Assembly: GCF_016863115.1 (NCBI RefSeq)
Contig: NZ_BOOG01000024.1
Span: forward strand, 1-64,000
From: Sphaerimonospora thailandensis
GTDB taxonomy: Bacteria; Actinomycetota; Actinomycetes; Streptosporangiales; Streptosporangiaceae
Reading direction: 5' to 3'
Length of the DNA: 64,000 bases
Of the stretch, positions 34,681-50,799 are shown one piece after another (positions within the stretch are counted from its first letter, which is position 1; every line of letters starts with the position of its first letter). Under the pieces are notes generated by a model, which ran no database searches, was not told the DNA's origin, and saw only the letters and a program-made list of their open reading frames with translations. The position numbers and the translations under genes are program-made.

Positions 34681-34728
34681 ATGCATAGCGGTGGGATCCT
34701 CGTAGTACTTCGCAGGCGCGCAGCCTGA
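34681..34728 (+). CDS. ilvB leader peptide (attenuator)
   Basis: [15 protein letters not shown], 15 codons, with a run of Ile-Leu-Val-Val-Leu. GGAGG is only 1 nt before the ATG, and TTGACT-N18-CATCGT ends about 7 nt upstream, so the message may be nearly leaderless. The 3' codons (GCGCGCAG, 34716-34723) pair exactly with CTGCGCGC at 34743-34750, which abuts the terminator. This is classical branched-chain amino acid attenuation. Confidence 0.8.
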
Positions 34729-34749
34729 CGAAGCCCTCGGTCCTGCGCG

Positions 34750-34786
34750 CGCCCCAACTCCGCACAGCGGATGGGGCGTTTTTTGT
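34750..34786 (+). terminator. ilvB attenuator terminator
   Basis: CGCCCCAACTCCG, loop CACAG, CGGATGGGGCG, then TTTTTT: a strong intrinsic terminator with a 2-nt bulge, between the leader peptide and ilvB. Confidence 0.8.
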
Positions 34787-48273: not shown

Positions 48274-48927
48274 TCAGTTCTTGCGGATGAGGGTGAGTCC
48301 GTCGGCGAAGGGGAGCAGGATGCTGGTCACCCGCGGATCGGCGCTGACCAGGTCGTTGAACGCCCGCATCCCGGGCACGTTGCCCCCGGCGGCCGGGTCG
48401 ACGATCTCGCCCTCCTGCAGCGTGTTGTCCACGGCGATCAGCCCGCCCGGCCTGAGCCGTACGAGAAGCTCCTCGTAGTAGACCGGGTAGCCGGCCTTGT
48501 CGGCGTCGATGAAGGCGAAGTCGATCCACTCCTCGCGGGGCATGGCCCGGAGCGTCTCGGCGGCCGGTCCGAGGCGAAGCTCGATCCTGTCCGAGACGCC
48601 CGCCTTGTCCCAGTACCGCTGGGCAACGGACGTCCATTCCTCGCTGACGTCACAGGCGATGAGGCGGCCGTCCGCCGGCATGCCCCTGGCGATGCAGATC
48701 GATGAGTAGCCGGTGAAGGTGCCGACCTCGACGGCCCGGCGGGCCCCGACGAGGCCCACGAGCATGGTGAGCAGCGTGCCCTGTTCGGGGGAGATCTGCA
48801 TGGTGTCGTCGTCGCCGACGAGCCGGTGCGTCTCCTCCGTGAGGGCGCGGAGCAGATCGTCGGGCGGGGTGGTGTGCGCGATGGTGTACTCGGCCACTGC
48901 GGTATCGATGAACTCGGCAACCTTCAT
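48274..48927 (-). CDS. SAM-dependent O-methyltransferase
   Basis: 217 aa from ATG 48927; a TAGTGT element about 8 nt upstream suggests a leaderless transcript. Class I methyltransferase of the CCoAOMT/MdmC group: AVEVGTFTGYSSICIARGMP (SAM loop), IACDVSEEW, FAFIDADKAGYPVYYEELL with the metal Asp residues and AVDNTLQEGEIVDP. Substrate (a catechol-like hydroxyl) is unknown. Confidence 0.88.
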   Translation of the reverse strand: MKVAEFIDTAVAEYTIAHTTPPDDLLRALTEETHRLVGDDDTMQISPEQGTLLTMLVGLVGARRAVEVGTFTGYSSICIARGMPADGRLIACDVSEEWTSVAQRYWDKAGVSDRIELRLGPAAETLRAMPREEWIDFAFIDADKAGYPVYYEELLVRLRPGGLIAVDNTLQEGEIVDPAAGGNVPGMRAFNDLVSADPRVTSILLPFADGLTLIRKN

Positions 48928-48989
48928 GCGAACCACACTAACCATGGCGGTTCGCGAGCGGGCGAAGCGTGGTCGGAGCACTCGTCCGC

Positions 48990-49006: not shown

Positions 49007-49050
49007 CGATGTGCCAGAGGCTGGGAGCATGTGGCAGACTCCTAGGCACC

Positions 49051-49095
49051 ATGTTCTACGGTCTGCTCATTATCGGCAGGCGCGCCGGCCACTAA
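49051..49095 (+). CDS. cimA leader peptide (attenuator)
   Basis: MFYGLLIIGRRAGH, 14 codons with Leu-Leu-Ile-Ile. Its end codons CGCGCCGGC (49081-49089) pair exactly with GCCGGCGCG (49105-49113), which abuts the terminator. Same design as the ilvB leader. Confidence 0.75.
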   Translation: MFYGLLIIGRRAGH

Positions 49096-49114
49096 AGGGA
49101 CAACGCCGGCGCGC

Positions 49115-49148
49115 AGACCTCTCACGTCCGTGAGGGGTCTTTTTGTTT
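49115..49148 (+). terminator. cimA attenuator terminator
   Basis: AGACCTCTCACG-TC-CGTGAGGGGTCT, 12-bp stem with one G-T pair, then TTTTGTTT. Confidence 0.8.
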
Positions 49149-49197
49149 GGGGCCGATGGGCGCGCGGCGACGACGGACCCGCGAAGGAGACGAAGAG

Positions 49198-50799
49198 ATG
49201 ACCGACGACGGCTTCCACGTGTACGACACGACGCTCCGTGACGGAGCCCAGCAGGAGGGGCTGAACCTGTCAGTCGCCGACAAGCTGGCGATCGCTCGTC
49301 ACCTGGACGGTCTGGGCGTCGGCTTCATCGAAGGTGGCTGGCCGGGCGCCAACCCCAAGGACACCGAGTTCTTCAGGCGGGCTCAGACCGAGCTCGACCT
49401 GAGGCACGCGCAGCTCGCCGCGTTCGGCGCGACCCGCCGGGCCGGTGTGAAGGCCGCCGACGATCCGCTGGTGGCCGCCCTGCGCGAATCCGGAGCGCCG
49501 GTCGTGACGCTTGTCGCCAAGAGCCATGACCGGCACGTGGAGCTGGCCCTCCGCACGACACTGGAGGAGAACCTCGCGATGATCCGCGACACGGTCTCCC
49601 ACCTTCGTGCGGAGGGCCGGCGCGTCTTCCTGGACGCCGAACATTTCTTCGACGGGTACCGCTCCAACCGCGCCTACGCGCTCGAGGTGCTGCGCACCGC
49701 GGCCGAGGCCGGCGCCGACGTGGTGGCGCTGTGCGACACCAACGGCGGCATGCTCCCCGACGAGCTCGCCGAGGTCGTCCACGAGGCGACCGCCACGGGG
49801 GCGCGGATCGGCATCCACTGCCACGACGACACCGGCTGCGCGGTGGCCAACACCCTGGCCGCGGTGCGGGCCGGCGCCACCCACGTGCAGGGATGCGCCA
49901 ACGGGTACGGCGAACGCTCGGGCAACGCCAACCTCTTCACGGTGGTGGCCAACCTCCAGCTCAAGCGGGGGTTCGAGCTCGTGCCGCCGCAGGCGCTGGC
50001 CGACATGACGCGCATCGCCCATGCGATCACCGAGGTCACCAACGTCACGCCCAACTCCCACCAGCCCTATGTGGGCGCCTCGGCCTTCGCCCACAAGGCC
50101 GGGCTGCACGCCTCGGCTATCAAGGTGGACCCCAACCTCTACCAGCACATCGATCCCGCCATGGTCGGCAACGACATGCGCATGCTGGTCTCCGACATGG
50201 CCGGCCGCGCCTCGGTGGAGCTCAAGGGCCGCGAGCTGGGCTACCAGCTGACCGGGGAGCAGTCCCGCGAGCTGGTCGAGCGGGTCAAGGACCTGGAGTC
50301 GCGCGGGCACACCTTCGAGGCCGCCGACGCCTCCTTCGAGCTGCTGCTCCGCGACACCGTCGCCGGCGAGCGCAAGCGGTACTTCACCGTCGAGTCCTGG
50401 CGCGTCATCGTCGAACGCCGCCCCGTCGTCGACCCCCTCACCGGCGCGGCGACCTTCGAGGTCGTGAGCGAGGCCACGGTGAAACTCCAGGCCAAGGGCG
50501 AGCGGATCGTCGCGACCGGCGAGGGCAACGGCCCGGTCAACGCCCTGGACAAGGCGGTACGGCTGGCCCTGGAGAAGCTCTACCCCGAGCTCGCCGCCGT
50601 CCAGCTCATCGACTTCAAGGTCCGCATCCTGGAAGGGACGCACGGCACCGGCGCGATCACCCGGGTTCTGATCACGTCCAGCGACTCGACCGGCGACTGG
50701 GCCACCGTCGGCGTCGACGAGAACATCATCGAGGCGTCCTGGCAGGCTCTGGAGCAGGCCGTGACGTACGGACTCCTCCGTGCGGGACACCACGCCTGA
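49198..50799 (+). CDS. cimA: Citramalate synthase
   Basis: 533 aa from ATG 49198 (AAGGAGA upstream). DRE-TIM enzyme condensing pyruvate and acetyl-CoA to (R)-citramalate, the threonine-independent route to isoleucine. DTTLRDGAQQEGLNLS, GVGFIEGGWPGANPKD (typical of CimA rather than LeuA), GIHCHDDTGCAVAN and NGYGERSGNANL; then a LeuA-type C-terminal regulatory domain. The product enters the LeuCD/LeuB steps also encoded here. Its leader has Leu and Ile codons. Confidence 0.92.
   Translation: MTDDGFHVYDTTLRDGAQQEGLNLSVADKLAIARHLDGLGVGFIEGGWPGANPKDTEFFRRAQTELDLRHAQLAAFGATRRAGVKAADDPLVAALRESGAPVVTLVAKSHDRHVELALRTTLEENLAMIRDTVSHLRAEGRRVFLDAEHFFDGYRSNRAYALEVLRTAAEAGADVVALCDTNGGMLPDELAEVVHEATATGARIGIHCHDDTGCAVANTLAAVRAGATHVQGCANGYGERSGNANLFTVVANLQLKRGFELVPPQALADMTRIAHAITEVTNVTPNSHQPYVGASAFAHKAGLHASAIKVDPNLYQHIDPAMVGNDMRMLVSDMAGRASVELKGRELGYQLTGEQSRELVERVKDLESRGHTFEAADASFELLLRDTVAGERKRYFTVESWRVIVERRPVVDPLTGAATFEVVSEATVKLQAKGERIVATGEGNGPVNALDKAVRLALEKLYPELAAVQLIDFKVRILEGTHGTGAITRVLITSSDSTGDWATVGVDENIIEASWQALEQAVTYGLLRAGHHA

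Follow-up and report, generated by a model that had tools for sequence, protein, structure and literature searches.

A conserved isoleucine-codon leader with two adjoining hairpins in front of actinobacterial cimA, a candidate ribosome-mediated attenuator

Several leaders of branched-chain amino acid genes have been described in actinobacteria. Those in front of ilvB, such as S. lividans ilvL (MRTRILVLGKRVG), the M. tuberculosis ilvB1 leader and the ilvB-II motif of Corynebacterium, consist of a short ORF with branched-chain codons, a hairpin over the end of this ORF and an intrinsic terminator, on a transcript that is leaderless or nearly so. All of these traits recur at the locus described here. 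LVVI-to-AAAA and terminator-less constructs demonstrated attenuation of M. tuberculosis ilvB1 (PMC13236596). For the ilvB leader of S. coelicolor, regulation was reported to be unaffected by codon substitutions (PMC1262725), a result that counts against a codon-sensing reading and cautions against assuming that a leader is functional. A survey of actinobacterial elements covers trp, ilvB, leuS, leuA, cys and ileS and does not name cimA (PMC1262725). Likewise, the eight leaders of an RNA-seq study of S. lividans include none at cimA, which counts against a leader there (PMC8079986). CimA, citramalate synthase, leads from pyruvate and acetyl-CoA to the 2-ketobutyrate precursor of isoleucine. The initial annotation of the DNA studied here knew of no leader described at this gene, and none was found in the open-licence literature, which is not proof of absence; the cimA leader thus appears to be undescribed.

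The window is a stretch of 64,000 nucleotides from Sphaerimonospora thailandensis (contig NZ_BOOG01000024.1), in which the true start of cimA is the ATG at 49198. In front of it the initial annotation had placed a Leu-Leu-Ile-Ile leader peptide, a 9-bp arm pair and a 12-bp terminator with a T-run. The ORF is real, the arm pair (P1) is present with a length of 10 bp, and the terminator stem-loop (T) is present with a stem of 11 bp (Table 1). P1 and T adjoin, with no base between them. The folding energy of the leader lies well below that of shuffled sequences (z = -3.6; none of 200 as good). Since the gene 5′ of the leader is divergent (48274-48981, minus strand), cimA needs a promoter within the leader region. 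The extended -10 element TGGCAGACT ends 10 nt 5′ of the leader ATG, and 174 of 201 homologous leaders have the motif TGn[CT]AnnnT 4-10 nt 5′ of their start codon. A -10-like element so close to the start codon suggests that the cimA transcript is leaderless or nearly leaderless. Intrinsic terminators can separate genes, and the terminator scan would yield 0.8 terminator-like sites per 3 kb by chance; T could in principle be a constitutive insulator against upstream transcription, with a non-functional ORF. This is scarcely credible given the divergent neighbour and the conserved promoter element, ORF, Ile codons and spacing that lie 5′ of the terminator.

Table 1. Features of the cimA leader locus, in window coordinates.
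Feature	Position	Strand	Basis
Leader peptide ORF MFYGLLIIGRRAGH	49051..49095	+	ATG 49051, TAA 49093-49095; frame with Ile codons kept in 201/205 homologous loci
Extended -10 promoter-like element TGG-CAGACT	49032..49040	+	Predicted from sequence
Likely sensor codons ATT ATC (Ile, conserved)	49069..49074	+	ATTAT[CT] in frame in 89/89 family sequences
P1 5′ arm GCGCGCCGGC, overlapping the Arg-Arg-Ala-Gly codons	49080..49089	+	Pairing and two-sided changes
P1 3′ arm GCCGGCGCGC, flush with the terminator	49105..49114	+	Gap to T of 0 nt in 190/205 sequences
T, predicted intrinsic-terminator stem-loop, AGACCTCTCAC-GTCC-GTGAGGGGTCT	49115..49140	+	Pairing with covariation
U-tract TTTTTGTTT	49140..49148	+	All homologues T-rich here
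cimA, citramalate synthase	49198..50799	+	TIGR00977, 649.6 bits (cut-off 450); RBS AAGGAG 49184-49189

The DNA upstream of cimA was compared at 90 loci from the same family. The element is present at 89 of them, the sole exception being L090, so that the short frame and the terminator are both conserved in relatives, as the annotation had demanded of its own reading. Family peptides range from MxxGLLIIGRRAG, via MRHSLVIIGWRAG and MTSGRIIIGRRVG, to MPSQVIIIVRRAG. In Sphaerimonospora mesophila, whose cimA is 96% identical to that of the window, the leader is the same. Across 42 non-redundant family sequences, aligned without reference to structure, standard pairs are kept in 99.0% of cells for P1 and 99.8% for T. 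Many two-sided changes occur across P1 and T, and 6 of the 10 P1 pairs carry them. None of 500 shuffles matched the observed pairing, the two-sided changes or the covariation score, and slid controls collapse. A structure-blind mutual-information scan of 86 distinct family sequences ranks the pairs of T and P1 at the top. Within the family, the terminator's 5′ arm, GACCTCTC, hardly changes while its partner arm varies by wobble, a degree of constancy beyond what pairing alone explains.

A frame with Ile codons ends at or just beyond the P1 5′ arm in 201 of 205 leaders. Directly before P1 it contains two Ile codons in 129 of these leaders, three in 68 and one in 4, and the last begins 8 nt 5′ of P1 in 156 of the 201. 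Neither Leu nor Val is conserved across the 201 leaders, Ile being the only one that is. The leucine part of the proposed control by leucine/isoleucine starvation is therefore lost: Leu-Leu is confined to part of one family, and leucine sensing at cimA was rejected. Of the two conserved Ile codons, the first is AUU throughout the window's family, a codon that is rare in seven genes of the window (4 of 136 Ile codons). In many other lineages a stop codon aligns with Arg (e.g. ...ATTATTACGTAGGCGCGCC), which implies that the Arg-Arg-Ala-Gly tail is dispensable and matters only for its P1 sequence.

With other codons, this scaffold also precedes other genes. It carries Leu codons before leuS (L143, L160), and Ile/Leu/Val codons before ilvB, one example being the ilvB leader of the window (34681-34728). 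Outside the class, in L304 (about 1506-1600), it precedes a LeuA-like gene with a leader reading ...LLLT; leuA leaders are already known as LEU elements (PMC1262725). That the codons switch with the pathway on a constant scaffold is the strongest evidence for codon-sensing attenuation. It also bears on the reading of the leader as a protein- or ligand-binding RNA (T-box, riboswitch or target of an RNA-binding regulator) with an incidental ORF. Such a reading would account for GCGC-N-GACC and the terminator 5′ arm being nearly invariant in the family beyond the needs of pairing, but it does not predict that the frame and the Ile codons are kept while other peptide residues vary, nor that the codons become Leu before leuA and leuS. 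In a search of the leader region, no Rfam family reached its gathering threshold, so there was no T-box or riboswitch match; the best weak match, Atu_C8 with 24.9 bits (cut-off 50), was discarded. We consider a ligand-binding RNA very improbable.

Some individual leaders show further variations. In the window's ilvB leader (34681-34786) the first hairpin is nearly flush with the terminator, a layout as at cimA, and in the leuS leaders (e.g. MRTRLLLTGPRR) P1 is flush against it. In L151 and L153 the Ile leader is present a second time (MFALVIIM and MFTPRIII), placed before a small ORF and not before cimA; this ORF resembles an ACT-domain protein of the acetolactate-synthase-regulatory type. In L306 the leader before cimA contains ...IIIIA.

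The distribution of the element was traced with a covariance model built from the family (R1) and a second model retrained on class members (R2), in 395 Actinomycetia genomes, 311 of them with cimA. R1 matches in 217 of the 395 genomes; R2 matches in 272, a figure that overstates the number of genomes with a cimA leader because R2 also catches ilvB leaders. Among the matches listed, all 95 that can be paired with cimA sit 30-214 nt 5′ of it, and 35 of 39 retrieved model matches precede cimA. A gapped DNA pattern found 81 sites in named genomes, of which 78 precede cimA and 3 are truncated at the end of the locus, in Nonomuraea, Microbispora, Streptosporangium, Herbidospora, Actinomadura, Nocardiopsis, Jiangella, Amycolatopsis, Prauserella and other genera. 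Covariation holds at the class level, in an alignment that was fitted to the model. Several cimA-bearing lineages lack the leader (L162-L180: very small genomes and some other families), which counts against the attenuator reading. Judged by such matches, a putative leader of this kind stands in front of cimA in most of the examined actinobacteria that carry the gene. In several of the very small genomes without it, cimA lies directly 3′ of a gene that reads like ilvE. In the record of Amycolatopsis palatopharyngis (L250), two copies of the element and cimA form an inverted repeat, which probably reflects a palindrome of the assembly.

The geometry of the leader was assessed with an assumed ribosome footprint of 12 nt beyond the first A-site base, a standard figure. 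In 156 of 201 leaders, a ribosome at the last Ile codon would cover 5 of the 10 nt of the P1 arm, and in 158 of 201 one at the preceding Ile codon would cover 2 nt; the masked part ranges over 0-4 nt at the first Ile codon and 0-7 nt at the last, usually 2-6 nt. With the ribosome at the stop codon, the whole 10-nt arm would be masked in 190 of 201 leaders, and 8-10 nt of it in 199. With its arm masked at the stop and mostly free at the Ile codons, P1 would report that the leader has been translated to its end. By geometry only, the position of the ribosome would thus control which hairpin can form.

P1 and T have no bases in common and are compatible in free RNA, and in simulated folding T pairs with a probability near 1 in every ribosome state. 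The mutual-information scan of the 86 family sequences revealed no covarying or conserved alternative pairing that overlaps T. With separate bases for the two hairpins and T formed in all states, the classical competing antiterminator is absent. Of the "complete attenuator" announced by the initial annotation, the conserved layout of a leader-peptide attenuator holds up; its arm pair lies clear of T and supplies no mutually exclusive antiterminator. A classical attenuator could be sought elsewhere, in the pairing of GGTCTGC (49060-49066, the Gly-Leu codons) with GCAGACC (49113-49119), which would break the base of T. This 7-bp complement exists and is retained by most members of one part of the family; when forced, it folds at -34.0 kcal/mol, but the resulting structure is 12.7 kcal/mol weaker than P1 plus T (-46.7). 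Moreover, the complement is absent in other groups, changes of GGTCTGC (AGTCTGC, GCTCTGC, GAACTGC) are uncompensated, and a ribosome stalled on the Leu/Ile codons would hide GGTCTGC, giving a response of the wrong sign. We regard this arrangement as most unlikely.

Other candidate pairings were rejected. GGAC in the P1 loop (49096-49104) and GTCC in the terminator loop (49126-49129) are complementary and both conserved within the family; changes of GTCC are not compensated by GGAC, and the pairing is absent class-wide. A segment between the U-tract and the cimA RBS, GCGCGCGGCGA (49160-49170), is similar to the P1 5′ arm and kept in many close relatives. Its pairing with the C arm was dismissed, as the segment lies past the U-tract and is present in part of the family only. 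A small hairpin around ATTATC is paired in just 62.5% of cells.

In front of cimA, then, stand a leader ORF with Ile codons and two hairpins, conserved together with their geometry. In all probability these form a ribosome-mediated transcription attenuator of cimA that senses charged tRNA-Ile through P1 and T. The nearly leaderless mRNA would begin at the leader ORF. When Ile is sufficient, the ribosome would reach the stop codon and cover the P1 5′ arm; without P1, T would fold and transcription would stop ahead of cimA. When Ile is scarce, the ribosome would stall on the Ile codons and leave most of the P1 5′ arm free, allowing P1 to form. P1 and the stalled ribosome at its base would then sterically keep the lower pairs of T open inside RNA polymerase, and with these pairs unclosed, transcription would read through into cimA. 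We infer both termination at T and the direction of the response from the sequence. A steric block is proposed because P1 ends exactly where T starts; that a complete P1 cannot coexist with a closed T base in the RNA exit region is a tentative part of the scheme, and may well prove wrong.

The main rival of this steric model takes P1 for a pause hairpin that gives the ribosome time to draw level with RNA polymerase. The stalled ribosome, placed next to T by P1, would itself block T, and P1 alone would not be an antiterminator. The trp leader includes pause hairpins, and since P1 ends just 5′ of T, a ribosome stalled at its base would abut T. Taken alone, however, a pause hairpin leaves the strict zero spacing and the covariation of the whole P1 stem unexplained, and we think it unlikely to be the full account.

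Under the proposed tRNA-Ile-sensing attenuator, an Ile-only leader would give the CimA route a control of its own, apart from the shared control of ilvB. Many antibiotic producers are concerned, in which branched-chain precursors matter. The conserved zero spacing also raises a testable question, namely whether a flush upstream hairpin can bring about antitermination although it has no bases in common with the terminator. More speculatively, Actinomycetota may possess a modular attenuator in which a ribosome-gated, zero-spaced hairpin antiterminates and the leader is recoded with Ile, Leu or Ile/Leu/Val codons for cimA, leuA/leuS and ilvB, respectively; we offer this as a rather doubtful generalization.

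Comparison with the known systems places the element as follows. It has end-product codons in a leader ORF and a predicted intrinsic terminator between this ORF and the structural gene; it lacks an antiterminator that excludes the terminator by base pairing. It would work like the known attenuators, yet departs from the classical type in one defining feature. The E. coli trp, his and ilv attenuators share its logic, in which ribosome stalling on end-product codons picks the hairpin, but in these the terminator arm is shared with the antiterminator, whereas P1 and T have separate bases. The LEU element of leuA (PMC1262725) likewise involves a leader ORF in actinobacteria, upstream of the gene for a related synthase. 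Unlike the cimA leader, it is a pseudoknot in which the Leu codons pair with the leuA Shine-Dalgarno sequence, with no clear terminator; at cimA, Leu is unconserved and the conserved pairs are those of P1 and T, not of codons with the RBS. The ilvB leaders differ in that ilvBNC rather than cimA lies downstream, and the codons at cimA are narrowed to Ile. Published models of ilvB contain an antiterminator competing with the terminator (PMC10272879, PMC13236596), and none was found at cimA. In the ilvB-II motif of Corynebacterium, a P1-loop segment pairs with a terminator arm; this does not apply at cimA, where the P1 loop shrinks to a few nt in some members and is unconserved class-wide. The Streptomyces leuS leader (Seliverstov 2005, PMC1262725; S. 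lividans leuL2) has Leu codons and leuS downstream, in contrast to the cimA leader. Like the latter it contains a leader ORF, and in L143 and L160 its first hairpin is likewise flush against the terminator.
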